Shown: positions 9,281 to 64,000 of the stretch, piece after piece
How the letters are laid out: every line of letters starts with the position of its first letter
How positions within the stretch are numbered: position 1 is the first letter of the stretch
Assembly: GCA_003118195.1 (NCBI GenBank)
Contig: BEXV01000640.1
Span: forward strand, 37,586-101,585
From: Hemicentrotus pulcherrimus
Taxonomy: Eukaryota > Echinodermata > Echinoidea > Camarodonta > Strongylocentrotidae
Reading direction: 5' to 3'
Length of the DNA stretch: 64,000 nucleotides
The notes under the pieces: model-generated
The model's database searches: none
What the model was told of the DNA's origin: nothing
Seen by the model: the letters and a program-made list of their open reading frames with translations, nothing else
Program-made: the position numbers and the translations under genes

Positions 9281-9397
9281 GTAAATGTGACCAGACGCAT
9301 CCTTGCTCACAGATATGTGTTGAGACAACTCCTAAGAGGTTAAGGTGTGATTGCTTTCCTGGACATGTTCTCTCAGGAAATGGCTTCCTTTGTCTAG
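9281..9397 (+). CDS. Exon 1 (visible): EGF-like domain, matrix proteoglycan-like gene
   Basis: The exon is a phase 1-1 unit of 117 bases between a TTCTCTTGCAG acceptor and a GTAAGT donor. It encodes about 39 residues with six cysteines at relative positions 3, 9, 13, 23, 25 and 38, giving spacing C-x5-C-x3-C-x9-C-x-C-x12-C. The long last loop and the CDCFPGHVLSGNG segment resemble the EGF type found in LDL-receptor and fibulin-like proteins. This extracellular domain probably precedes the Ser-Gly-rich segment of exon 2, since phases match. The linkage over a 20.7 kb intron is inference: symmetric exons could be missing between them, or this exon could belong to a different transcript. A diverged copy of its 3' half lies 325 bp downstream. 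Confidence 0.8.
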
Positions 9398-9671
9398 GTA
9401 AGTAAAATCACACAAAATACAGGTGCTACAAACATTAACACATTCAGGACGGAAAGTTTTAAAGTGCTTAATTCATCAGCTTCATATTGGAAACACCGTT
9501 TCTTTTTCTTCCGATGACTACATTTTAATTGAAAGGTCATTAATCTGAACAAAATGTAGACAATGAGTTAATATAAACAGAAACTGTGTCAGATACTTTT
9601 TTATAAGAAAATACCAATTTGTATGGAAGGGTTGAACTTTTTATCATGTTGCCAATTTAAGGATTTTCTAG

Positions 9672-9757
9672 TGGATTGCTTTCCTGGTCACGTTCTGTCA
9701 GGAAATGGTTTGCTTTGTCTAGGTCTAAGTAGGAACACAAATACAGTTGCTTCATTG
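9672..9757 (+). pseudogene. Degenerate copy of the 3' half of exon 1
   Basis: This matches 9347-9430, covering the last about 50 coding bases, the donor and about 30 bases of intron. The frame is open and would read DCFPGHVLSGNGLLCLG, close to the parent. The donor has gained two bases (GGTCTAAGT instead of GGTAAGT), the upstream half of the domain is absent, and there is no acceptor, so it is unlikely to be spliced as an exon. Confidence 0.8.
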
Positions 9758-17230: not shown

Positions 17231-17791
17231 TTTGATGAGACAACCCATTGCCAACATGCTTGATGGATGTGTCATCTGCCTGCATGTATGTTCTAAGAAT
17301 TGGTATCTGTTATAATTCATGGCTGAAGAGATGAACACTGAAAGAATGAGGTCTGCAGTGATGTCGAATGCACATCATGTTGTTTGCTGAGAGCCAGATA
17401 GACATTAACTGCATTTACTATCATATTGGTTAATGGCCTTCTGGCACTCAGTAGATGATGTATGCATTCCATGTGGATGTTGATGGCTTTTTTGTTTGTT
17501 AGATCCCCACNTTTGATGATACAACCCATTGCCAACATGCTTGATGGATGTGTCATCTGCCTGCATGTATGTTCTAAGAATTGGTATCTGTTATAATTCA
17601 TGGTTGAAGAGATGAACACTGAAAGAATGAGGTCTGCAGTGATGTCGAATGCACATCATGTTGTTTGCTGAGAGCCAGATAGACATTAACTGCATTTACT
17701 ATCATATTGGTTAATGGCCTTCTGGCACTCAGTAGATGATGTATGCATTCCATGTGGATGTTGATGGCTTTTTTGTTTGTTAGATCCCCAC
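17231..17791 (+). repeat. 280-bp tandem duplication around a single N
   Basis: Copy 1 (17231-17510) and copy 2 (17512-17791) have the same length and differ at only about two positions, with one N at 17511 between them. This is most simply a false duplication at a scaffold join (two haplotypes or overlapping contig ends placed side by side). Confidence 0.85.
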
Positions 17792-30083: not shown

Positions 30084-30329
30084 GTGAAACTATCGACATC
30101 GACAGCGACGTGCCTACAACCAATGGCCTCATCACAGATGATGAGGACTTCGCTGAGGGGAGCGGTTCGGGTGACGGAGAGGGCGGCGAGGGTAGCGGTC
30201 CTCCAGACCAGACAGCCGATCTGACATGTGATGATTGGCCATGTGAGAACGGGGGCACCTGCTACCTCAGAGGGGAAACCCCCATGTGTACCTGTGCCCT
30301 GGGATGGGAGGGAGCCATGTGTGATGATG
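30084..30329 (+). CDS. Exon 2: acidic Ser-Gly-rich segment plus EGF-like domain
   Basis: A phase 1-1 exon of 246 bases (82 codons) with a CTTGACACAG acceptor and GTAAGTC donor. Residues 1-48 are acidic and low in structure, with three Ser-Gly pairs (codons at 30161, 30167 and 30194) in an EGSGSGDGEGGEGSG context. Ser-Gly dipeptides flanked by acidic residues are the usual site for heparan or chondroitin sulfate chains. Residues 49-80 form an EGF domain: CDDWPCENGGTC, then CTC and GWEGAMC, with six cysteines. The last codon is split G|CT and joins exon 3 as Ala. This marks the product as a likely secreted proteoglycan; chain attachment itself is inference. Confidence 0.9.
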
Positions 30330-47370: not shown

Positions 47371-49366
47371 TCTGGCACAGAATAGGATACGTTTATAGAT
47401 GATATGTTTGCATGTTTGCCATATCATTCTCGTCTCCTCTTATGCAATTAATTTACTTACAGGAGAAATAAAATTGCTTTTTATGAAGCATTTACTGAAT
47501 CATATTTCTTTCTCCTCTACTGCATAATAAGAATAGGAGAGAACAGTTTTCTGTATGGGTGTGTTGGGGGAGGGAGGGAGGTAAATGGGTGTGGATGCCA
47601 GAGTTCATATTCTGATAACATATTTTATATTTGCTTTAGAGGGGGATATTAATAAAAAAAAATCTATAAGCTCTTTATTCCTCAATGGACTGTGCCATCG
47701 TGGCAACTTAAATGATTGGTAGACAGCAACTTAATTGGTTGACATGTAGGTAAACCCTAGCGAAATTTGCAATTTACAGTTTGTTATGCCAATAAAAACC
47801 ACAATGGGCAAAATCTGATGTACGTTGCTATTAGGGTTCGCATACATTATGAAGCGGAGTTCTGAACATAAATAAACACATCATTTCACTTTATATTTGG
47901 TCTGATCTCCACTCTTGTAGGGATATAAACCTCATACAATAATCAGATTTACTAATTACTTAGATGTGGTCAGTAACATATGGCACAAAAAAGGCTTGGA
48001 CTGTGTCTACCATAAAGATGAAATAATTTTTCAAAATGGCACCCTAGGTAACAAATCCAATTTCCAAAGAAAATGTAATCCTTCTATTTAATGCATTTGA
48101 AAGTCCATATGACTGTATCACTAAATTGTGCCATTCCAATATCCATCTTTTTTATGGTTCAGAGGAGATCACATTTATTATGGCATCCACATTCCGGATA
48201 GATCTGGTCAAATTGCCAATGCTATCAAGCTGATAATGAAATTTGAAGAAGCATATTTTGTTTTCTCATTTCTTCCTCATTTATTACGACGGAGGGTCTA
48301 GCAAATTTGATTGCCACAAACTAAACACAAAAATGAATTTAATCAAGAGAGTGATTACTTTTGGTCTGTGAGGTAATTCCTATCAATTTACTGGCTTTGA
48401 AGGCAGATGAAGCCAATGTAATAAAGACCTGTATTATTAGCTTCCGATGCTTGCATACTTTGCCTTCTAGATGTCATCGAACTATGGCTTTTGCTTTTTA
48501 AAACATCAAATACTGTGACAGTCTGTCATGTATAAATAAATGAGATTGAGCTTAAAATGTAGCAGAAGCAATATGCAACTTCCATGAAATATTAAGAGGG
48601 TATTCTATTAGGAAAACAAAGTTGTTCTTATAAATATGATTTAATGGTATTGTAATGTTTGTTATGACTTACTCAAATGTATGTAAGTACATGTACACAT
48701 TCATAATTGTCTGCCTTTGCACGTATTGGGTTTTTGTCAATTAGTAACATATCTTGAGTAATGAGGACGAAAAACAGTTAAAGTTTGAAAATGGTTATTT
48801 ATATGAATTTAACCTTCAAGCATAAAGATCCTGATTCATGGTTAGTGTGGTAAAGTGGCTGAGGGAAAGTTGTGGCAAAACAAAATGGTACATCAAGTTG
48901 CTCTGTATTAGTGCTAGGTGAAAGTAAACTGTTTTGCTGACATTAAATCTTTGCAATTTTAGCCACCCAAGTACTTTCACATCTTACCCAGATTGAGTTA
49001 GAACTGGTTATCTTTGTAGGTCACTACGTATGGAATAGGCTCATTATGGTAACAATGACAGACTAATCTTTTCATGAAACAGTTATAAAGCACATTTATA
49101 AAGTCAATGAAATTCATGTGATGAGTCAAATGATGTTATACACTGTCAAAAACTTCTGTATATGGGGTTGACCATATTTGTATCTGTTCTACATACCGGT
49201 ACATGTACATTATGTGTTTGGATACTAACAGGGAATGATATTTAGGGTCAATGTTCCGAGAGGTCTATCTCCTGCACTTTTCAGTGCTGATCATTAATAG
49301 TCCTTCTTGTCTTGTCTAGTCACACTATACTATCATACGTTCTTCATCTTGTATCTCCCTGTACAG

Positions 49367-49571
49367 CTGTAAACATCCGCTTCCCTCGTTTCTATGGCAG
49401 CTCTTACCTCTCAATACCGGTACCCACCTCCAAGCTCTACCAGTCCTTCTACATCACCATCTCCTTCAAGCCGGAGTCTCTCAATGGAAGGCTCTTGTTT
49501 GCTAGTCAGGAGGAAGATGGCAAAGGGGATTACATGGCTGTCGGTCTGGTCGATGGAAAGGCTGTCTTCAG
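49367..49571 (+). CDS. Exon 3: laminin G domain 1, N-terminal part
   Basis: The exon starts in phase 1 after TCCCTGTACAG and ends in phase 2 before GTATGTT. It encodes 68 residues beginning VNIRFPRFYGSSYLSIPVP, the usual opening of a laminin G / LNS domain (F-x-G-x-S-Y first strand). ITISFKP, then NGRLLFASQ, GDYMAVGLVDGKAVF follow. These match the I-x-F-x-x-x-x-x-x-G-x-LL and D-x-x-x-x-x-L-x-x-G-x-V/L pattern of agrin, perlecan and pikachurin LG domains. It directly continues the EGF of exon 2, giving the EGF-LG order of this family. LG domains bind alpha-dystroglycan, integrins or heparin in relatives; the ligand here is unknown. Confidence 0.93.
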
Positions 49572-51866
49572 GTATGTTCATTTTGTTCACCTTTTTATAT
49601 TTCCTTCCAAAGAAGTTATTGAAATGGATAATCTGTTACAGCAAAGCCTTGGAACTGCTCAACAGACACATGAAACATGGTCTTAATAAGCAGGTAGTCT
49701 TTATACGGTTGTATGACTGTTTCTGAGACAATTGCTATACGTACATTTTCAAACATTAAAGGAATGCCACACTTTTAAACTAAAACCCAATTTCAAACAT
49801 CACCATAATCCTATAGTTTTCATGATCTTTTTAATATTTTCTTTGTAATTGATGTTCCCATTATTTGTTGTCATTGATTCGTAAGGTTAGTCATCTACAA
49901 TGTTTGTCATCTTAAGCTCATCTATAGTATCACAGTTTATTATTTTGGAGGGGAATGCATGGTTAGTTTAAAGATTTGTGAAGAATGGAATTTTCCTTTG
50001 TGAAAGCCGCCTTGTCAACTTCAATATTAAGGCTTCCTTTGTCATGTACAATGTTTCTTTGTTCTTTTGTTAAACTTTCACCTATTTATCAATCTGTTAA
50101 TGTTATATTAATGTTCTTTCACGTCATCAGTGGAGGTTTGGTTGTGAAGTAGAAATAAATTATTGATATGTAAACTTTGTTAAACTATATCTGTCGAATG
50201 GTGAAAAACCCATCTTTACCTAGAAAAAAATGTTAGGATTTAATAGAAACAAGATCAATCACACCCCCGTTTCAAAGGAACCCTTTATTCTGTTCATCTC
50301 TAGAATGACTTTTAACAGTACCAAAAAATTTTTGTGGGTTTAGCCTCAAGATCAATACGATTCTCCAAAAAGCAATCATAATCTTTCATATCCTAAATTC
50401 TCACAATAGGAAGATTTTCACTCAATGTCATCTGATTATTTTCTATCATAACACTGGAGTCAGATCTCCTTGTTGTGGTTTACAAAGAGCTTCTGCTTAA
50501 AAGTCACCCTTTAGAAAACCTTACAGATCTTTTACAGATCCCTTACCCTACAGACAATGTCTCTCTCTCTCTCTCTCTCTCTCTTCGTGATGAATTATTC
50601 AAAGGCTTTCTTTCTAGAGATGGTTTGTACTTACCTTTGTCCATTTTGAAAATTGCTTGAAAATCCTTTCTAAGCTGTGCTGACCTTTGAGAATAATGTT
50701 GTTTTGTCTATCCTTCTGAGAGAAACACAGAAAATACCTTCTGTATTTTGTCATTGCACTTAGTAAGGATTATACATATAAGCAAGCCAACAAACTACAA
50801 TATTTTATATAAGATGAAATGTTAAAGTCTTCTGACATTTATACGAACATGACCAGGAAATGAATTGTAACAAAGTGAAATGACGAACCGTTCTCATGTT
50901 CAAATTCTCTTTGACGGTATTGTTCAGTTACTGGAATATATCATTTTCATGTACCGGTATGCTCCTTAAAGTTCGTAAAACGTACTGAGCTACAAGTGTA
51001 CCTACTTAAACACCCCCATTCCCTGATGCCTTTTAGCAAGAAGTGTATACCTGTTCCGCTTCTTCATGATAGATGCGTCACCCGTATATATTGCGGATTG
51101 GGTTTATTACCCCTCAAAAAGGCTATTCTTACCCCTTCCAAAGAGCCTTTATTACCCCTTCATAGAGCCTTTCACTCCATCTCATAGCCAAGGTTAACAA
51201 ACTATTCCACCCTAGGCCAATGTTATCTATCATTACCATTCTATCATAATCTGGATCAATTCTTCATTATAATCCCTGGTATTAACTCCTATTGATGTCA
51301 AATTGTGGTGTCTTGACTTATGAAGAAAGGTGATGTACCTTCATAATGGATTGTAATTATGATGGTGCCCAAATAAATCATGGATTCACCGACTCAATAC
51401 CTAACAGTGTCATAAATTTCTTTTTGCATTATTATGATATGGAGGTGGTTGGATTTATGTCCTGTCCTGTGAAGTCAGATGTACAGTATATATATACCAT
51501 CCTTTGTATCTTCAGCCACAAGGGAATCAGAAATGCAAAGTCCAGTAGTTGTGTGGGTGTTGTGGTTTTCAGGAAAAGCCTTCTTTTTTTAAAAGTCTAG
51601 GGCAAGTTTGACAGATGTTTCTATAGCATTGGAAAAAACTTTATTAAATAGAATTATGTGGGTGTTAGGGGGGATTGTAGAGAAATCATGACTAATCCAC
51701 ATTCTTATTCAGTTATACAGCTTTTGGTCATTCATTGTCCCAGTTCCATTATTCAAAATTCTGAACGCTTGGTATCATGCCTGATTAAATTATTGCATTG
51801 TGGGTCAAAGTGTACCCCCTCCTTAATATTGACTACCGGTATAGATTTTCTTTCTTCATTCAGTTT

Positions 51867-52257
51867 AAAGGGATCGTTTAACAATGTTAAATCTGAGATA
51901 CACGGCCCTACGTGTTATCAGTGTCTGTGATATGGTGTAATATTGAAGCCCTCAAAAAAATTGGCTTCAAAATGATCCAGAATTGCCCCAAAAAAGTTAA
52001 AAATCTTTGAGTGACTGGTTTTTACCATACTTGGTACTCGTTTTCCCCAATAGACTGTAGTGTTATGAAAACCGTCAGGTAAAGGTTTTTCAAAATTTGT
52101 AATTCAAATCATAAATATTTTCATAATCAGACAGGCGATCAGCTTGTAAAAGTGATGGTGTTCCTGACTGACCTAAAGGTTTATAATTATCATTGCAGCA
52201 TGAGATAGATCCAGAATTTTTTTTTCAGAATCTGAGACAAAGTTACCGGATCCCTTT
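51867..52257. mobile_element. TIR element AAAGGGATC, copy 2
   Basis: Same ends (AAAGGGATCG and CGGATCCCTTT) and mostly the same interior as the copy at 23559, but about 57 bases longer because of a segment after CAAAATGATCCAGAATT. Both copies are probably immobile relics of one non-autonomous family. Confidence 0.8.
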
Positions 52258-53098
52258 AATAATAATTGATGATGAACATTTTGCCTTGTTTAATATGTTT
52301 AAGAGCAATGTAAATCTTTTGCTGATAGTCAGAATGCATTATATATATATGTTAAGTGTATTAGTAAATTTCCTACTTGCCCTAAATAAATAACCCATAG
52401 GTTAACCCAGTTATCGAATATAGGAACAACACCGATACAGACAGGGTACATTATGACTTCCATATAGAGCACAGACATTGATGACATCATGAAGACTGGA
52501 CTAGGACATGATGTATAATAATAACATAGGCATGTGTGTCCACATCATCTCTGCCGCTCTATTAACAGTACTTTAATTGGATTTATGCATTGGTAACAAG
52601 CCTACCTAAACAAGATGAGGCTCCACGACCGGGATTTATTGCTTGCTTTGTCATCCTTCCGTAAACTGAAGCAGCAGGGTGAATTCAATGTAAATGACTT
52701 TGAATGAAAGGCTGATGAAAGTAGCTGCACAGTTTAATGACCAGCTTCTGTTTTGATTCATAGAACTTGCAGTAATATGTAGCCATTTAACAAGCTGAAC
52801 ATTTTAATTCAATTTTAAAGTAAAAGTTATAGAAGCAATACAAGAGTAAGCTAACTTATTTCCATGCAAAATCATTTAGTTAGTTGCTCATCTAAAATAG
52901 AATTAATTATGAGGAAAGGAGCTTCATTAAAACTTAATCAGATCAAATCACAAATGAGATATATATGTTCATCATTGATATTTTGTCCACAATTTGAGTG
53001 GAAAAAGTTTGCCAATTTTTGGTTAAATGGAGTTACATAAAAATAAAAGAAGAGTGCAGTTTTCTTATATTTCAATTAGAATTAGAATTTTACAAATA

Positions 53099-53175
53099 TC
53101 TCTGTTTGGAGCCAGAAGGGCATTTACTCATAACACTTTTCACAGACTTAGTGCCCTTCTGCCTATAAACAGATA
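53099..53175. repeat. AGAAGGGC hairpin element, copy 3
   Basis: Left arm ATCTCTGTTTGGAGCCAGAA continues GGGCATTTACT; right arm is ACTTAGTGCCCTTCTGCCTA then TAAACAGAT. The arms pair over about 28 bases around a loop of about 20. Confidence 0.75.
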
Positions 53176-54117
53176 GAAGAAGAAAAGTAATTTAAAGATA
53201 GTAGATAAATCAATAGAATGAAGTCTTAGATATATCAAATCTATGTTCAAAAACTTAGAACTGTTGTATGATTATGTTACAAGTTCATTATCAAAACAAC
53301 TATTTTGTGTAACCTCAGTCGCACATTTAGAGATACATGTATGTAAAGATGAGTTATCTCTTTGCTAACAAGCGATGAGATGGTTTGAAAGGAAGACAAA
53401 CAGAGAAGGAGATCAATAAAATGTGGCTCCAAGATGGTATGCACGTGCTGCATGCACGTCTGAACCCAGACAAATCGTGTAGAACTTGGTGGAAAGAGTC
53501 GCCGCATTGCCCGGAGTGTGTTTACAAATTGAGCCCCTCACGCTTGATGTCTTAATTGTGGAGAACTGGACGGTTAGCCAGGTTTCTCTTTATATCTCCC
53601 TCTAAATGACTCTGAAACTGGCCTTGGATACCTCAAAGTGAATCGATACAATCAATCTGTACGAATTTGTAAAGAGATTCTATTACACCGTCGTCGGCCT
53701 ACCATAAAAGTCTTGGATTGGTGAGGGTGTTTTGAGAAAGTGAGAAACTTAAATTAAATTGACTTTTTTTTTCTCTGCACCTTCAGAATTTTCTATAAGT
53801 GGGTTTCTTGGAATCTTGCTTTTCTTCAACCCAATGGAATATTCTCTTCCACGTTTGTTTGATGTTTTCTTCATCGCCATACTCTATCTATCCATCTCAT
53901 TATCACACTCTATCTCTCTCTTTCTCTTTCTCTCTCTTTCCATCTCTCTCCACCTATTTTCTTTCTTTCTCTCACAGACTCCTCTCCTGTGGCTACAAGT
54001 GTTATTTCTCGCTCGATATGACTTACATTATAATAATCACCTATCAATATTGTCATTGTTGATGTTGATGTATTACTATCAATATCATCAACAGTCTTTA
54101 TCTTTGTCATCATCATG

Positions 54118-54196
54118 TCATCTGTTTGGATAAAGAAGGGTATTAATTCATATACTTTTTAACATAGTCAATGCCCTTCTGGCTTTAAACAGATGA
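54118..54196. repeat. AGAAGGGC hairpin element, copy 4
   Basis: Left arm TCATCTGTTTGGATAAAGAA continues GGGTATTAA; right arm is CAATGCCCTTCTGGCTTTAA then ACAGATGA. The terminal TCATCTGTTT/AAACAGATGA pair is perfect. It lies about 210 bases before exon 4. Confidence 0.75.
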
Positions 54197-54408
54197 GTAG
54201 TACTGGTCATTGTCTGTTGTACCTTATCATTACCTTTATCAATTTATCATTCATCATCATTATAATCATAGTCAACATTAAACTTTCTTCTTCCTCTTCC
54301 TCTTCTTCTTGTTCTTCTCCTCCCCTTTCCCTATCTCCTGCTTCATATATGAGCAATATTTATTATCATTTTTTATCATTCTCATACGATTTCGATCCTC
54401 TCTTGAAG

Positions 54409-54553
54409 GTTTGACTGTGGTCAGGGAGCAGCCGTGATCACCAGCCAGACATCTGTCACCCTCTACAAATGGCACACTCTCAAGATTGGTAGAGATGCTC
54501 GTAAAGGTTGGCTCCAACTAGACGATGCTCGTATGGTCAGGGGTACCACACCG
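54409..54553 (+). CDS. Exon 4: laminin G domain 1, middle part
   Basis: This 145-base exon opens with one base completing an Arg codon split as AG|G, after CCTCTCTTGAAG, and ends at a codon boundary before GTAAGTC. It encodes 48 residues beginning FDCGQGAAVITS, the LG signature F/Y-x-x-G-x-G-x-A-x-I. YKWHTLKIGRDARKGWLQLD and DARMVRGTTP follow, matching the W-H-x-L-x-x-x-R-x-x-R-x-G-x-L-x-x-D block of LG domains. It contains no start codon near its beginning and is too short to stand out as an open frame. Splicing to exons 3 and 5 gives one uninterrupted LG domain. Confidence 0.93.
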
Positions 54554-55797
54554 GTAAGTCATCATAACTCCCTCTACTACTACCGCATAACCATGGCAAC
54601 TAAAGTGTTCTAAGAACATTAAAAATATTGAGACATTTTCTCATTAGAAAGAAAAGGAAGTTGTCGTAGATTGCACAAATCATTATTCAAAGCACTCCTG
54701 TGTAACTCCTATACAGACCTAACTCCGTGTATTTCAATGTTTGGCACCAAATTGTTTGTATTCTCAACATCGTGCTGTTATACATGAGGTTTTGTTTCCT
54801 ACAATTTGGCAGCAGAACCTTTATTCCCAGAAATGTTTATAGAGTACTTTTGAAGTTGAAGGTGAACTTTCCCATGTAGTTCCAAAAAGGGTCATTTTTG
54901 TCAGGAAAAATAACCTTGCTTATGAAATATGACAATGTGCCATTACCGGTAGTTATAATGGTAGTATTGATTAATTCAATGTGAAGGCCGTGTAGATAGA
55001 ATTCCAAGCATAATTTGTCTGTTTAGAACCAGAAGGGCGTTAGCTTTCTGTAAAAGTATGATCTTATGCCCTTCTGCATGGCTTTTAACATATGAATTGT
55101 TGAAGTTACACAATACTGATGTATAGATCTGACCTCCCATTAGTTTCACCTGTCACATTTTTATACAGCATGAATTACACAAATAATAGTACATAGGGAA
55201 AATTAAAATTCACAGTTTTCCTGTTTTGGGCAGCTGAGTGGAGTTAAATAAACACCTGACTATTTCCTGTCTAAGGTCACTGCAACTCTGTGAGTCACTG
55301 TTATAAAAACACAAGATATTATTGTAAGATTTAGATGTAAAAAGTACAATTAATTGGGTGGCGTAGCATGACAAAATTGTTTTCTTTGCTTTATGTAGTT
55401 TTACTAGCACTTCAGACATACATGTAGTATGAGCGTTTCTAACCTTTAGTTGAAGAATAAAAAATTTGTAAAACCTGTTGCGATCAAAGAATTTCAATAT
55501 TGCCTCAGATGGGCATTTTCCATTCAAATCCATTCAAGACTTTATTCCAGGCCCAACTGCAAGAGCAAGGATCCATATAACTTATTTACATGTAGATATA
55601 AATGAACAACACTAACAAGAATAAGAGGGGAACACATACAGATATAAGAGAAACAAATTAATAAGAGCTTTCATATAACTGAAGAGATCACCCTATTTTG
55701 ATGAAACCAAACCAAATGAGTAATACAATTAGAATACCACCCTTGTAATAACTTTTCAAATGTTATTTCCTTTTTGCACACAATGTTAAATATACAG
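54554..55797 (+). other. Intron, 1.2 kb
   Basis: Phase 0 intron with a hairpin element at 55013. Otherwise AT-rich with no coding signal. Confidence 0.75.
55013..55093. repeat. AGAAGGGC hairpin element, copy 5
   Basis: Left arm TTGTCTGTTTAGAACCAGAA continues GGGCGTTAG; right arm is CTTATGCCCTTCTGCATGGC then TTTTAACATATGAA. The right arm has extra bases, so pairing is less regular. Confidence 0.65.
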
Positions 55798-55996
55798 GGT
55801 ACGTTTTCCATGGTGACTTTGAAGGGAGACCTCTTTGTCGGAGGGTTCAACACCACTGCAGATATCCGTGATGGTCTAAGGATCAAGCACATGTTCCAAG
55901 GTTTCAAAGGATGTATCGAGAGCATCGACATTTCAAATATGGACTTGGATCTTAGGCCTTATCCCAAAGGTTCCATGCTTGGAGGACAGAATGTTG
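55798..55996 (+). CDS. Exon 5: laminin G domain 1, C-terminal part
   Basis: Phase 0 at its start (after AAATATACAG) and phase 1 at its end (before GTGAGTTG). Sixty-six residues include LFVGGFNTTADI, the LG motif L-y-V/I-G-G followed by an N-glycosylation sequon (NTT), and then MFQGFKGCIESIDIS, the F-x-G-C-I strand. The cysteine at 55912-55914 is the first half of the LG disulfide; its partner is the Cys of GEC at the start of exon 6. The domain ends at GGQNVG. A diverged copy of the last about 75 bases lies just downstream at 56069. Confidence 0.93.
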
Positions 55997-56468
55997 GTGA
56001 GTTGTTAGTAACTATGACCTTTCACCTTTGACCTCTCTACTAAGGTAACAATGACCTTTGTTGTTTGAAAGCATTGACATTTTAAACATGGATGTGAATC
56101 TTAGAGCTTACCCCAGAGGTTCCATGGTAAGAGGACAGTATGTATATGGTCATCACATTGACCCTTACAAAGCAATTGACCTTTGACCTTATGAACAGCC
56201 TTCATGGTAAAGAAACAGACTCTAGGTGAATATAGATAGCATTGATCTATTGATCTATAGAAAGGAGCGGGTTATCCTTGAACCTCATGGCTTAATTGGC
56301 AGTTCAGGAGACAGTATGATGATGAATATAATGATAAAATTGAACTTCAGAAATTATAAGGGTAACTACATGTATGACCTCATCCCTATGGTTAGATTAG
56401 AGTTTATATCCATTGCAAATTTGTTGCTGTTGTAAGAACATGTTGAAACCTTGACCCTACCCGTGCAG
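55997..56468 (+). other. Intron, 472 bp, with decayed exon copies
   Basis: Phase 1 intron. It carries the exon 5 tail copy and repeated TTGACCTTTGACCT-like words (56017, 56051, 56177), suggesting local tandem duplication followed by divergence. Confidence 0.75.
56069..56143 (+). pseudogene. Degenerate copy of the 3' end of exon 5
   Basis: Aligns to 55920-55994 without gaps at roughly three-quarters identity. The frame stays open: SIDILNMDVNLRAYPRGSM against SIDISNMDLDLRPYPKGSM in the exon, then GQYV against GQNV. The donor GTGAGT has become TATGGT, and there is no acceptor. A weaker third trace (CTTCATGGTAAAGAAACAGA) sits near 56203. Confidence 0.8.
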
Positions 56469-56594
56469 GTGAATGCAGTGAAGGTGTATGCAAGCATCAT
56501 GTATGTACCAATGGTGGAGCTTGTATTAGCAGGTCACCGGATCAAGCCATGTGCCTCTGACCTCTCGGAACACACGGCTCAGTATGCGAAGATG
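56469..56594 (+). CDS. Exon 6: EGF-like domain with in-frame TGA at a cysteine site
   Basis: A phase 1-1 exon of 126 bases between CTACCCGTGCAG and GTAAGTC. GEC at the start supplies the second LG1 disulfide cysteine. The EGF then reads C-KHHV-C-TNGGA-C-ISRSPDQAM-C-L, followed by codon TGA at 56558-56560, and then PLGTHGSVC. In this family the residue there is the cysteine of the C-x-C-P-x-G motif, so TGT or TGC is expected and one base has changed. The remaining frame is intact and both splice sites are good, which does not look like a long-dead exon. Because the exon is symmetric, skipping it would keep the downstream frame. Causes could be a base-call error, a null allele or an alternatively skipped exon. 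Confidence 0.88.
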
Positions 56595-56636
56595 GTAAGT
56601 CAAGCTCCAGACTCAGTTTGTATCATGTAATAATAA

Positions 56637-56829
56637 TACAGTGAAACCTGTATATAAAGATCACTCAAGGGAAACATGAAAAGTGGTCTTTATAAACAGG
56701 TGGTCTTTCTGTACAGGTTCCTTCAGTTCAGGTTTCAATGAGAAACCATATTTAAGGAAACAAAAAATGTGGTCTTTATAGACAAGTGGTCTTTCTATAC
56801 AGGTGGTCGCTAAAGCAGTTTTGACTGTA
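56637..56829. mobile_element. Mariner/Tc1-type MITE
   Basis: The left end is TACAGTGAAACCTG; the right end, in reverse complement, is TACAGTCAAAACTG. Both start with TA, as expected for Tc1/mariner target sites. The inside holds repeated GTGGTCTTTATA and GGTGGTCTTTCT words. About 193 bp, non-coding. Confidence 0.75.
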
Positions 56830-57100
56830 TTTGGTTCTTGTATAGCGCTTGTATCTGCCAGACTTGATGCTCCTGGCGATCCCGATTATTACCCTGGCTT
56901 TATATAGCACGGATGCCATTACGGCGCTCTAGCATTCCAAGGAATTAATTCCTGCCAGGTACCCATTTACATCACCTGGGTTGAGTGCGGCAAATGTAGA
57001 TCAATTTCTTGCCAAAGGACATTAGTGCCGCGGCGGGACTCGAACTGAGGACCTGGTGATCGCCAGTCTGGCGATGTATCCACTTGACCACGACACCTCT
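56830..57100 (-). mobile_element. tRNA-derived SINE
   Basis: On the minus strand the head starts GGTGTCGTGGTCAAGTGG, with an A box (TGGTCAAGTGG, 57080-57090) and a B box (AGTTCGAGTCCC, 57035-57046) at normal tRNA spacing, the internal RNA polymerase III promoter. A body of about 170 bases follows and ends in AAGCGCTATACAAGAACC, close to the tail of the LINE at 22576. Its 3' end abuts the MITE at 56829. The tRNA part lacks a good cloverleaf, so it is not a tRNA gene. Confidence 0.8.
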
Positions 57101-58019
57101 TCATAAGAGCCATTTAATCTGTATCAAAAGATAGCGAATGAGTCACAAGATTATCACTGGATTCATTGGCTTGTGGGAATTCCTATTTCAGTGCCAATAC
57201 TGGAGAGTATGAAAGTAGAAAATTATGACTTCCTGTTTGTGAATAGTAACCATAATATATAGATAGCTGTCACTACCAGGGAAACTCTTTCCATGTTGTT
57301 AGCTGTTACATTATTATATTTCCCTTGATTTTTTTTGTTCTTGTAATTCAGAATATCCCTGACTACATGTATGTTTGTAAGCAAATGTTATGATCCAACA
57401 ACTGCTATATTCTGATTCTTATATTTCCTGAAAGAGAAAAATCTAGTTACAGTACCAGTATATAATTATTTGTCCCCAGATCCAAGTCTATTACACTACC
57501 ACAAATATCTTTGTTTTGTTTTCATATACATTTCTGTCTAAGATCTGTTGAATATGTAAGCAGGGTGAAAAATTCCAAATGAGAACTTACTATGTAATAC
57601 GATAGTACATGAGAGTACTACTTATACCTTTTTATTCTTATTAATTCTCTAAATCAAGAACAGTGTAGCGCATCTAGGGTTCATTGCATGGTATTATAAC
57701 ACACATATCAAAATGTGAGATATGTGATGGTATATATTTCTAGAGATCAAGCCACACACATAGCCAATCACACACATATGTGATTAGAAACACATGCTTG
57801 GCCCATATATTTTCTTTTGATTTCAACTCACTCGGCCAATTTATCAATTTTGTTTTGATAAACGGTAGATTGAAGTTCATTTTCCCCTTCGAGGTATGCT
57901 GGTACCTCACATGTGAACCAGATTTATTTTTGGTTTATTTCTTCTACAACTTTCAAATGTCTGTTATTCTTTCTTGCATCCAGTTGAATACTTTTTCTGT
58001 AGACCATATAATTCCATCA

Positions 58020-58286
58020 TTCATTATTTCTTCTATAATCATCATGTTTCTTGCCTCTTCTTCCCTTCTCTCTTCCCTTCTCTTCTTGTTCATTTATCAA
58101 TATGCTTCTCACTCTGTTTCTGTCTTCTTCTTCTTTCTTGCTCAGTTGCTTGTTCATTTCTTCTTATTTTAATTTCCTTAATTTAAACTTTACCAGCCTG
58201 ATTTTCTCTCTATTTATCTATTTTTCCTGTGGCTTCACATTATGCATCTCTCTCTCTCTCTCTGCCACTCTCTCTCTCTCTCTCTC

Positions 58287-58317
<31 letters not shown>

Positions 58318-58520
58318 ATCTCTCTCTATATATATTATTTATATGTAATCTCAATCTCTTTCACACTCTCTCCCTTCCCTCTCCCATCATCCCTTTCCTG
58401 CTCTTTCCCTCACTTCCTCTACCTTCCCTCTCTCATCTCTATCCTTTCTTTTCTTCTCTCTACCCCTCTTCACTTCTCCACTATTCTCTTCATTTCTCTT
58501 TCTTTATTTCTACATGAATT
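58020..58520. repeat. CT-rich low-complexity region
   Basis: (CT)n and CTTT/CCTT repeats, densest at 58244-58330. The S/L/F-rich plus-strand frames here are products of composition. Confidence 0.9.
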
Positions 58521-61029
58521 ATAGACTTTATTCATGTGCTATCTGTCATTCTTTCTTTCAATTTCGTTGTGTCTCAATGGTATTCACACAAGACCTATAA
58601 CTTCCTCTGTTACCCATCTTTGCTGTAGATTGATAATTAATTTAACTCATACACCTGAACAAGTGTACCTTTAAATGCGTTCAAGTTCAAGGCCGTACTG
58701 TCTACACATATATTGCACTTTGCTACTCACAGCTATATTATACATGTATAAAGTAAAAGAATATGTTGCTGATAATTCCCTCAAAGGGTATTTCAAATGG
58801 AAATAAAAGCTAATGTTTGGGTTGAAAAAATGAAGGTCATTCAATATTGAAGGGGTCTAACCAGGATGCACTCAACTACCAATTTACAATTCATGATTTA
58901 CTACAGTCAGGGTAGCCATGCTGACGTCCTTCGTGTCCTTCGAATGCAAAGATTTTGGAGGAGGAATCATCTATTTCCAAGCATTCTGATGAAAAATTAC
59001 TTAAATCAAGTTTTCATGCAAAAGCGTTCTTATCCATGATTAGAAAACATAAATGTTTTATTTCATATCACACAATGGTATGAATATCTTTAGAGTGAGG
59101 CAGAGCGATCTTACATTATAAATGATATGTTTGATAAAAGTGAGGATAAGGAATGCAAATTGTACGAAGCCTGATTCTATTTAAATTGCCCTAGATGTTG
59201 TCGAAGAGAAACCACACATTGAACACAAAGGCAATTGATAGAGGAAAAAATGTGTCTCTATATACCAGAGTATTTAGCAACAGGAACTTGTGTGCAAATT
59301 ATCAGATACATGTACCAGTAAAGTGAATTTTACTTGTCCTTCAAATTGGGATTAATGATATAGATGCTCATTCTGATGCAAACACAGTGCATTATCCACT
59401 TAATACAGTCCAATCTTACTACAATAACAACAACATTCTTTTTCTTTGTGATAACTCCATGAATGTATTGTTAACACTGATCTGATACTCTCACCTACTA
59501 TGTTGAAACATATTCTTTGCCCCTCTTGTATCTTCGCCATTCTTCAGTCTGTCCCCCTGCCTCCCCTCTGCACTATCTCTCTGATGAAGATCAATGAATC
59601 ATTAATCTTGGTTGTTATTGGCTATCAATATCCATGTTTTTATTTTTACCGTGTCTTCTACAATGTAAATTCTGCTTTGATTCAGCCCTGGGTTTGGTTG
59701 GGGAGAATGATTATTTAGTGCGATCAATACTACATCAACTCATTTTATTTCAATTCAATGCAATACAACTCAATTTGATTCATTTTGTTTCAATTCATTT
59801 CAGCTCAGTTAAATTCATACACACAATGTATTATCCATACATTGTATTCCAATATGCAGAACACATCATGAATGGGGAGGTCAGAATATGTACATGGGTA
59901 TATATTGAGGCAATCTAATATATCTGTCGAGATTCATCAAGCCTCTTTGGAATACGAGAAAGTAAAATGGTTTTTCTACTGACCTAGAATATTGATAGCA
60001 ACTGATAGAGATACGGCAAGCAGTTGTCAGGGTGGTGATTTTGAGAGCTTCTTTTGAGAATGTAATTGTAGGTGATTCATGTAAGAAGGTCTAAATTGCA
60101 AGCGGCAGAAAGAAAATGATTTAACCCTTCAAATCCCATGTAATTGTTCTTTCTACTATCACTTTTGAAGCTGGTACATATGCATGAGCAAGATAATAAG
60201 TGTAATAAAGCTTAAGTCTTGATATGAATTTTAAAATGAGAGATCATAGATCAAAATTTTCAAAGTAATATTATGACGAGAAGAGGGAGGAGGATGGTGA
60301 TGAAGATGAGGATGCAGATAATGATTAGGATGATGATATTGAGGATGATGATTATTGATAATGATAGAAATGATTATACATGTAGCTTATACTTGTTAGT
60401 ATTCATGCAGTAACAAATAAATGCTTAAAACTTGTACTGCAAGCAATTCATTTTTGTTTTACATTTTTGTTATAAAACCAATGGCGTAATGGTGAAGACA
60501 AGATCCTCATAATAAATAATTGACATGAACCCTTTTCAATTTCTGTGGCTGAAGGATGTTGCACACGAAGAAACACAAAAATCATGTTCAAGCATATCAT
60601 ATCATAGTCAAGTGTGAAATTGTGTCTTTCATGTTTTAATATTCACATGGACAACCTTTAAACACCGTGAGCATGGAATAAGGTTAAGTAACATTACTCT
60701 ATTCAAAGGCATGTTGACATAAGTTGACATAACCAGTATCATTTGTCCCAGAGGCTGAATAGCTGACAAGAAGATATTGAAATACAACAACAGAAATAGG
60801 ATGTTTGTATAATGTGGAGGCGAGTAAGGAGGGGGTGGTAGAGAAATGTTTTTTTTTTTTAAAGAACTGTACCCCCCCCCCCCTCTGCCCCACATTAGAG
60901 ATTCAAAGGATGCCCTTTGTAGTTGCTCGTTATGTTTTCATCAAGCTCCTTATCTTTACTCAAACGCGAGCCCAGGGCCATTTGGTAGATGCAATCCTTG
61001 TGGAGCTTGAACTAATATACTCATGTAGC

Positions 61030-61043
61030 GTTACCGTGGCAAC
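61030..61043. promoter_or_regulatory. RFX X-box motif
   Basis: GTTACCGTGGCAAC fits GTNRCC-N2-RGYAAC exactly. It is the third perfect match in the window and lies about 0.9 kb before exon 7. Confidence 0.35.
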
Positions 61044-61472
61044 ACGAGCATCATCGTACATGCGTTTTCATTTCCCCAGGCATGCCATAGAGACATAAGT
61101 GACTGTTGAGCCCTTGTGCAGTCTGCTCGTGGTGTTACATCTGAAGATGAAGCTAGCTAGCTATCGTAAAGGAAAATAGTGCAATATTGAATTCGGGCAG
61201 GTGGATTAGCCATTGACAAGTGAGAATTAATGTTGCTTGTGAAAACAGTTTGATACATTAAATCATCCCTCGCATGCTTGAAGATGTCAAGTATGGGTTA
61301 AATAATGCGAGTTAGCAACCTGCTGACTCTTAGCTATTGATAAGCAGAAGCATATTGCAGTAGATTTTTTTTTTTAAATTGATCTTACAATACTGAAGTG
61401 CAGAAAAGTGAGGAACATGTTCAGCATTTCATTGTATCCAGGTTTCTAAAACATATTACTTTGTTTCCTTTT

Positions 61473-61473
61473 G

Positions 61474-61517
<44 letters not shown>

Positions 61518-61519
61518 GA
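61473..61519. repeat. GA / GACA microsatellite
   Basis: (GA)n passing into seven GACA units. Confidence 0.95.
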
Positions 61520-61968
61520 TAGAAAGAAAGTGACATAATTGTTTTTCGTACCATTAACCTCAGTAGAAGCTTTAGGGAATGCTGCCAAAATAAAATAGGA
61601 AATATATACAAATTGTGTTTGAGGAAAATGAAAGTTGGAAAATACCAATAAAAAAAGTTCTAAAGAAATACAGTAAATGTGCTATTGAGCAAAATGATGT
61701 AGCTACTCAATATTGTATTCTCTGATGGCTACATCTTTACTCATTGTATGCTAATGAAAGACTGAAAATGTGTTTCTTCTCCTGCTTGCTACTAGCTGTC
61801 TTCTATTCTCTAGCTCTATTCTGCACGTTGTTTCTGTTTATATCTCAAAGAAGCACCAACAAAATCCTTTATTTCATTTGCTAAAAGATGAATTTGAATC
61901 ATAAGCCTTAGAAAATACTTGAATGATATACACATTCAATATATTCCTATCTTGTTTTCTTTTTGCAG

Positions 61969-62209
61969 TAATTGAGATCCACACCCCATCGTTCAATAGC
62001 TCCCACTCCTCCCACATCGCCCATGACTCCCTAGGCAAGAAGCATCTCTCCTTCCTTCAGATGGAGATCATTTTCAAACCCAAGGAGCCATCTGGCATCC
62101 TGATCTACAGCGGTACGGAATCCAGGGAGGGGGACTTCTTCTCCATCACGCTGGATGAGAACTACATAGGCTTTAAGTTTGATTGTGGTTCAGGGCCCGC
62201 TGTTTTGAG
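61969..62209 (+). CDS. Exon 7: laminin G domain 2, N-terminal part
   Basis: Opens in phase 1 (G|TA, Val) after TTCTTTTTGCAG and ends in phase 2 before GTAAGAC. Eighty residues: VIEIHTPSFNSSHSSHIAH with an NSS glycosylation sequon, then LSFLQMEIIFKPKEPSGILI, YSGTESREGDFFSITLDEN and FKFDCGSGPAVL. These match the LG blocks I-x-F-x-P-x-x-x-x-G-x-L-x-Y, G-D-F-x-x-x-x-L and F-x-G-S-G-P-A-V-L, the last almost as in agrin LG domains. Here the intron falls after the GSGPAVL strand, whereas in LG1 it falls before it, so the two LG domains do not share exon structure at this point. Confidence 0.93.
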
Positions 62210-62702
62210 GTAAGACATGGAGTGTGTGCAGAGGATTAGTTGAGATGGTGGTGATGCTGGTGGTGGTGGTGGTAGTTATGTTGGAGGTGGTGGTGGTGTT
62301 AGTGGTAGTGGTGTTGATGATGGTTTTGTCGGTAGTCGTAGTGGTAGTTTTTATAGACCAACTAATAAATAAGTGTACTTTTCCATCTTCAACCAGGTAG
62401 AGAGAAACTTTTGCTAATTTTTAGAACAACAACAAAATGGAGGGCTGCTCACAAGATGAAATATTTTATTCTATATGTTTGATATAGAACAATTGTAAAA
62501 ATCCATATCTCTAATGGATTTCCCTTTAAGAAAAATTCTTCATAAGTTTCTCTCATATTGTGCTTTTATTTAAAAAAAACCTTTATATCAGGCTATAATT
62601 TTCCTTTATATTTTAAGAACTAGTCCCAAATAAGATTACATATATAGCTTTTGAAGCATTCAAATTAACATGTAATTTATTGTCTCCTTCTCTTGTCTGC
62701 AG
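62210..62702 (+). other. Intron, 493 bp
   Basis: Phase 2 intron with a (GGT)n-type repeat at 62244-62350 and a TCTTGTCTGCAG acceptor. Nothing else recognised. Confidence 0.8.
62244..62350. repeat. (GGT)n-rich microsatellite
   Basis: GGTGGTGGT runs with AGT and TGA interruptions starting about 35 bases after the exon 7 donor. Confidence 0.85.
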
Positions 62703-62931
62703 ATCAACCCAGCCAGTAACGCTTCATGAATGGCACATCGTGGAGGTATCAAGAACGGCCCGAGAAGGTATGTTGAGGGTGGATAACCAACCTACGGTTA
62801 CAGCGTTAGCCCCTGGAGCTTTTACACAGACATCGTTTGATACAAACCTCTACATCGGAGGCATTGACGATATCGACCTCCTTTCCAGAGAGATGGCAGT
62901 CAAGAATTCATTCAGCGGAGATATCCAAAGG
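62703..62931 (+). CDS. Exon 8: laminin G domain 2, middle and C-terminal part
   Basis: Starts with one base completing AG|A (Arg) after GTCTGCAG and ends at a codon boundary before GTGAGAG. It reads STQPVTLHEWHIVEVSRTAR, then EGMLRVDNQPTV and TNLYIGGIDDIDLL, ending NSFSGDIQR. The W-H-x-V-x-x-x-R-x-x-R-E-G-x-L-x-V-D and L-Y-I-G-G blocks are typical LG. Where LG1 has G-C-I, this domain has G-D-I, so the usual LG disulfide cysteine is missing, as in the second LG domain of some agrin-type proteins. The last about 60 bases and donor recur several times in the next intron. Confidence 0.93.
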
Positions 62932-63552
62932 GTGAGAGATAGTCGGGGATAGATGGAAGAAATGAGAGTGAGATCTAGGAAAGGAAAATTAAAGGGAGAG
63001 AAAGAGAGAATGAAGTAAGAGAGATAGATAATATGAAAGAGAGAGAAAGAGAGGGAGAGAGAGAGAGGGAGAGAGAGAGATTGACCTCTTGTCCAGAGAG
63101 ATTGCTGTCAAGAATTCATTCAGCGGAGATATCCAAAGGGTGATAGATGGAAGAGATGAGAGTGAGATCTAGGTATTAAAGGAAAAAGAAAGGGAGAGAA
63201 AGAGCGAGAGAGAGAGATCCAAAGGGTGATAGATGGAAGAGATGAGAGTGAGATCTAGGTATTAAAGGAAAATTAAAGGGAGAGAAGGAGAGAATGAGAG
63301 AGAGAGAGAAAGAGAGAGGATGAGAGATAGTCAGAGATAGATGGAAAAGATGAGAGGGAGATCTAGGAAAGGAAGAAAATAGAGAGAAAGAGAGAGAGAT
63401 ATCAAAGGGATGAGGGATAGTCAGAGATAGAGGTATGAGATAAGAGTTAGGTTCAGGGGAAAAGAAGAAGAAAGGGAGAGAGAGTGACATCCAGAGGATG
63501 AAAGATAGTTAGATCCAGCAAGATAGGGAAAAGAAAGAGAGAGGGAGAGAGA

Positions 63553-63587
<35 letters not shown>

Positions 63588-63600
63588 CAAGAGAAAGTTG
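62921..63600 (+). repeat. Minisatellite containing exon 8 donor copies
   Basis: Degenerate units carry ATATCCAAAGGGTGATAGAT, AGAGATGAGAGTGAGATCTA and AGGTATTAAAGGAAAA words separated by GAGAGA spacers. Units begin near 62921 (the exon end itself), 63130, 63217, 63310, 63399 and 63487. The array ends in a plain GA run (63545-63586). Confidence 0.8.
63079..63150 (+). pseudogene. Copy of the 3' end of exon 8
   Basis: Matches 62871-62942 closely: ATTGACCTCTTGTCCAGAGA and the whole AAGAATTCATTCAGCGGAGA segment through ATCCAAAGGG. The frame is open (IDLLSREIAVKNSFSGDIQR). The donor reads GTGATA instead of GTGAGA, and no acceptor precedes it. Confidence 0.85.
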
Positions 63601-63765
63601 GGAGCAGAGGAAAGGAGAAGATGAAAAGTTTGAGAGAAGGAGAAGATGGGTCGAGTAATAGCTTTGTTTCTTTTTCTTGTCTACCAAATAGGCACTTGTA
63701 ATTACAAAAATAGATCTCTCATTTTTCTTGGGATCAGAATCAACAAATGAGTGTCATATGAAACG

Positions 63766-63850
63766 ATATAATAATAATAATAATAATAATAATTTAACTT
63801 ATATAGCGCTTAATACAAATGTCTCTAAGCGCTTTACAAATATACTATAA
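63766..63850 (-). mobile_element. LINE-type 3' tail
   Basis: On the minus strand: AAGCGCTTAGAGACATTTGT, then AAGCGCTATATAAG and a (TTA)n/(ATT)n tail. It is very like the end of the LINE fragment at 22576. No reverse transcriptase sequence is present here. Confidence 0.55.
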
Positions 63851-63937
63851 TATAAAATGGAATACACTGAAATTATATACATACTGTTTGTCTCTCATTG
63901 ATTGATATGATATTCCATCCCATTTTTTTTCTTGCAG

Positions 63938-63998
63938 GTGTTAGTCAATGATAATGCATTAGATCTGATCAATGAGGCAGTGGGCGGGGCTAATGTTG
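63938..63998 (+). CDS. Exon 9 (partial): end of laminin G domain 2
   Basis: Begins in phase 0 after TTTCTTGCAG and reads VLVNDNALDLINEAVGGANV to near the window edge. It joins exon 8 as SGDIQR-VLVND, the normal continuation of an LG domain. The last bases are AATGTTGGT; by analogy with exon 5 (GAATGTTG then GTGAGT) the donor probably starts at 63999, but the window ends there, so the boundary is inferred. If the exon continues, the frame stays open to base 64000. Confidence 0.85.
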   Translation, partial: MLVNDNALDLINEAVGGANV

Positions 63999-64000
63999 GT

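Follow-up and report, generated by a model that had tools for sequence, protein, structure and literature searches.

An in-frame TGA at a conserved EGF cysteine site of a sea-urchin pikachurin-like gene that otherwise looks intact

An in-frame stop codon inside an exon that otherwise looks fully functional raises the question of whether the gene is broken, whether the stop is avoided or decoded, or whether one base has been called wrongly. Such a codon, a TGA standing where an EGF cysteine is expected, occurs in a stretch of 64,000 nucleotides (here called the window) that is part of contig C640 of the 414 Mb Hemicentrotus pulcherrimus assembly. We consider below which gene carries the codon, how well the rest of that gene has been kept, and which of the possible explanations the evidence favours.

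Among the protein matches listed, those closest to the window are pikachurin-like proteins of sea urchins, namely of Lytechinus pictus (88% identical in one search and 89% in another), L. variegatus (92%) and Diadema antillarum (78%). Agrins and neurexins score below pikachurin-like proteins across the whole region. Nine exons of the gene, with matching phases, lie inside the window (Table 1). The ninth continues into locus L022, which is identical to the window where the two overlap, and four further exons follow past the window end before a natural TAA, giving 13 exons in total. A search of 9.4 kb of the window and a further 20 kb or so upstream found no first exon with a signal peptide, and "exon 6", the TGA exon, is therefore the sixth coding exon found in the window, the first exon being missing from the count.

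The encoded protein contains three Pfam Laminin_G_1 and three Laminin_G_2 stretches, which indicate three laminin G domains interleaved with EGF domains. Two Pfam EGF stretches were recognized in the window protein, which has an X at the stop, versus three in each of the two urchin orthologues scanned. The order of an N-terminal Cys module followed by EGF, LamG, EGF, LamG, EGF and LamG is shared with the L. variegatus (P0007) and D. antillarum (P0008) proteins, which differ in having cysteine where the window has TGA. The part of the gene inside the window is identical to L. variegatus P0007 at 460 of 518 aligned residues (nine exons summed). With a limit of E 0.1, neither the 13 exons, which lack the first exon, nor the proteins of L. 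variegatus and D. antillarum gave a fibronectin type III (FN3) match. Judged by its sequence, the gene is an invertebrate pikachurin-like (EGFLAM) orthologue, and because of the missing FN3 match it is filed as such and not as the vertebrate pikachurin form. The deposited L. pictus model (P0001) looks like a faulty gene model, because compared with L. variegatus it has an unrelated N-terminus and a garbled laminin G 1 stretch.

Table 1. Coding exons, the in-frame TGA and local duplications of exon ends in the window.
Feature	Position	Strand	Evidence or remark
Coding exon, N-terminal Cys-rich module	9281..9397	+	Splice sites, phase; aligned to Diadema P0008 and Lytechinus P0007
Coding exon, acidic linker and first EGF domain	30084..30329	+	Splice sites, phase; Pfam EGF stretch
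Coding exon, laminin G 1 part a	49367..49571	+	Splice sites, phase; alignment to relatives
Coding exon, laminin G 1 part b	54409..54553	+	Splice sites, phase; alignment to relatives
Coding exon, laminin G 1 part c	55798..55996	+	Splice sites, phase; alignment to relatives
Coding exon, EGF domain between laminin G 1 and 2, with TGA	56469..56594	+	126 bp, phase 1-1; sole assembly match
In-frame TGA, fifth EGF cysteine site	56558..56560	+	Read in the sequence; alignment to relatives
Coding exon, laminin G 2 part a	61969..62209	+	Splice sites, phase; alignment to relatives
Coding exon, laminin G 2 part b	62703..62931	+	Splice sites, phase; alignment to relatives
Exon start, laminin G 2 end and third EGF domain	63938..64000	+	Continues in L022; overlap identical
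Exon 3'-end duplication	9349-9430 and 9674-9754		82% identity
Exon 3'-end duplication	55918-55994 and 56067-56143		81% identity
Exon 3'-end duplication	62869-62940 and 63077-63148		90% identity; inside a longer 68% match

The preliminary description had placed the TGA at an EGF cysteine codon, within an exon with good splice sites, correct phase and all other EGF residues, and this reading holds. The exon runs from cag followed by GTGAATGC to GAAGATG followed by gtaagt, and both acceptor and donor are good by eye. In frame it reads G-E-C-S-E-G-V-C-K-H-H-V-C-T-N-G-G-A-C-...-M-C-L-stop-P-L-G-T-H-G-S-V-C-E-D, so that the stop takes the place of the fifth of six EGF cysteines, as numbered by eye, and the other five are present. 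The orthologues of L. variegatus, L. pictus and D. antillarum, a comparison that had been recommended, have C-L-C-P-L-G at this site. Cysteine occupies the column in 63 of 63 selected relatives (P0001-P0062 and P0065, picked from 124 proteins; the 61 others, mostly agrins and neurexins, were excluded). The same residue stands in 221 of 221 distinct relatives among the matches listed, all of which span both flanks; these were pooled from three protein searches, two of them contributing the best 120 of 131 and the best 120 of 204, and the entries are representatives of clusters at 90% identity. A mis-drawn exon boundary was ruled out, as the exon is in phase with both its neighbours and its protein follows that of Lytechinus before and after the stop.

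As far as it was read, the remainder of the gene looks intact. The joined frame of the 13 exons comprises 750 codons, the last of which is the natural stop; the sole internal stop is codon 334. In the 403-residue part from laminin G 1 to laminin G 2, conservation among the 63 relatives reaches at least 90% in 75 columns, and the window departs at three of these. Two of the three are departures in Lytechinus too, one to the same residue and one to a different one; the remaining one is the stop itself. The marks of a pseudogene, several disabling lesions or relaxed constraint, were not seen, given one internal stop in 750 codons and no departure from the conserved columns beyond those of Lytechinus other than the stop; the intact joined frame together with the conserved columns ruled out a frameshift or wider decay. 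Further stops that appear inside the matches of the assembly search were dismissed, as these matches overrun the exon ends and the exon-trimmed frame has one internal stop.

Conservation of the TGA exon itself bears on how long the stop may have been present. Apart from the stop, 40 of 41 residues match L. variegatus, and the sole other change, Ala versus Ser in both Lytechinus and Diadema, may predate or postdate it. Exon by exon, identity to L. variegatus is 28/34, 67/81, 59/69, 41/48, 52/66, 40/42 (the TGA exon), 79/81, 75/76 and 19/21, which puts this exon among the better conserved ones and about level with those of laminin G 2. Laminin G 2 (61969-62931) is nearly identical to L. variegatus and laminin G 1 (49367-55996) less so, that is, conservation along the gene is uneven. 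Based on the 94 nonsynonymous sites in the 40 other whole codons of the TGA exon, the probability of at most one amino-acid change would be 0.76, 0.23 and 0.05 after 1%, 3% and 5% of unconstrained neutral divergence, respectively. Because 40 of 41 residues have been kept, the exon has not been long out of use: either the TGA lesion is young, or it is unreal, or the exon continues to be used.

Another copy of the exon does not appear to be the source of the TGA. No second copy was found within the window, and the exon matches the assembly once, at its own place (one candidate scored). With the L. variegatus protein as query, exons of high identity occur on contig C640 only and the matches on other contigs are relatives, 28-56% identical (best 60 of 793 candidates); a paralogue or a second exon copy as the source of the TGA was rejected on these grounds. 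Since there is only one assembly match, no unmerged second haplotype offers itself for comparison.

In three of the nine window exons the 3' end is repeated in the intron just downstream (Table 1), and such copies make up three of the five complex local duplications in the window, though exons cover about 2.5% of it. This excess may be due in part to exon copies decaying more slowly and to the complexity filter. Just 3' of the TGA exon a 49-base unit is locally repeated and a dispersed repeat starts (56623-56700, 56670-56804); at least 39 other places in the assembly match the final 60-80 or so bases of a query spanning this flank. A sub-threshold Rfam match to mir-1759 on the minus strand (60808-60899; 32.8 bits against a gathering score of 58, E 0.0047) is probably due to chance.

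The preliminary description had listed a base error, a segregating nonsense allele, exon skipping and recoding as possible causes of the TGA. The list was sound, and the first two are favoured because the codon is the sole internal stop in an otherwise intact gene of which no second copy was found; the other two proved unsupported. Very probably the codon reflects a recent and isolated lesion of one base in a pikachurin-like gene that is otherwise whole. Either the draft consensus would have a wrong base here or the sequenced animal would carry a nonsense allele, and we consider these two about equally likely.

A single base change suffices for the stop, and 261 of the 6750 possible single-base changes in the frame (about 3.9%) give one. 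At assumed consensus error rates of 1e-5 and 1e-4 per base, about 22 and about 218 false stops, respectively, are expected in 25,000 such genes. Draft features are indeed present in the assembly, including a 24-N gap, a 1-N gap and a 280-base repeat across the latter. In this repeat the stretch 17231-17510 recurs at 17512-17791 with 278 of 280 bases identical and a single N in between, and it probably reflects either a contig overlap that was left unmerged or two alleles placed one after the other.

The present case resembles a known kind, the consensus errors and private nonsense variants met in draft genomes of very polymorphic animals, in having one base, one stop and a gene otherwise intact, with no difference seen. 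If the sequenced animal does carry the allele, its protein would be cut off within the EGF domain that follows laminin G 1, with laminin G 2, the third EGF domain and laminin G 3 lost. As a rule, mRNAs with such a premature stop undergo nonsense-mediated decay, and the same would be expected of this one. The genome sequences of echinoderm individuals are described as highly polymorphic in a paper on echinoderm gene names (PMC8361234), and private nonsense alleles are on that account to be expected.

The TGA form is the only one present in the assembly, as it would be if a truncated form, without laminin G 2, EGF 3 and laminin G 3 of the pikachurin-like protein, had become fixed in the species. 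The downstream exons, however, are intact, with no further stop and no frameshift, and laminin G 2 hardly differs from its Lytechinus counterpart. An old loss is disfavoured because more damage would be expected, and we regard fixation of the truncated form as improbable.

Skipping of the TGA exon, always or in this species, would yield a shorter in-frame protein in which laminin G 1 is joined to laminin G 2. As pointed out in the preliminary description, skipping keeps the frame (126 bp, phase 1-1). This is weak evidence, since the window holds two other whole exons of Cys-rich or EGF type, and their lengths (117 and 246 bp) can likewise be divided by three. Against skipping, the EGF domain with its cysteine is kept in all 221 relatives listed, although the 90% clusters could hide skipped isoforms, the donor and acceptor look good by eye, and the exon is about as conserved as its laminin G 2 neighbours. 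There is little to recommend this explanation, which we place on a par with a fixed truncation.

Finally, the UGA might be recoded as selenocysteine or read through with Cys, Arg or Trp, giving a full-length protein. The TGA does stand at a cysteine site, and recoding as Cys or Sec would likewise keep the rest of the exon conserved. The selenocysteine route exists in principle, since 14 SECIS elements have been identified in Strongylocentrotus purpuratus, so that selenoproteins occur in sea urchins (PMC2746813). As for read-through, cysteine was inserted at three CFTR UGA nonsense codons under G418 treatment (PMC11079177). An in-frame TGA where homologues have cysteine is also what selenoproteins show. 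Here, however, no homologue with Sec or a conserved TGA occurs among the 221 relatives listed, and no SECIS element above chance was found downstream by Rfam and a crude pattern scan, both uncalibrated and run without a positive control. With a limit of E 10, Rfam gave no SECIS family in window positions 49000-64000 and in the 20 kb from the window end past the natural stop, and the scan of the 4 kb 3' flank gave one weak candidate against a shuffle mean of 0.35 (7 of 20 shuffles hold one). The SECIS search that had been proposed thus returned nothing in favour of recoding, and the caution voiced earlier about selenocysteine at an EGF cysteine appears well placed.

A C following UGA favours read-through. 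In this gene that C is forced by the conserved Pro codon coming next and is consequently no extra evidence. Unlike the Sec sites of selenoproteins, an EGF cysteine is disulfide-bonded and not a redox site. We know of no precedent for recoding at such an EGF site, and one literature search on selenocysteine in EGF domains listed a single paper, on therapeutic protein modifications. Recoding is formally possible yet unsupported, and we consider it very improbable indeed, more so than skipping or truncation. The same very low likelihood attaches to the specific case in which the TGA is a true and common allele and selenocysteine, or Cys by efficient read-through, is inserted there, at a cysteine that forms an EGF disulfide in an extracellular matrix protein.

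In the retina, the C-terminal EGF-like and laminin G region of pikachurin has been proposed as a bridge to the receptor GPR179 (PMC6203450), and the protein is reported to be cleaved into N- and C-fragments, as shown with recombinant murine protein in Y79 cells (PMC3514312). Going by the listing of one literature search, no function of the protein in sea urchins was found in print. The cause of the TGA is most likely ordinary, with no novel mode of decoding involved. For now its importance lies chiefly in annotation: the gene model should be carried on past the TGA codon, and the base needs checking. If the TGA were decoded, it would be a recoding site without known precedent, and were the stop a common real allele, a pikachurin-like protein would have lost its C-terminal half naturally.
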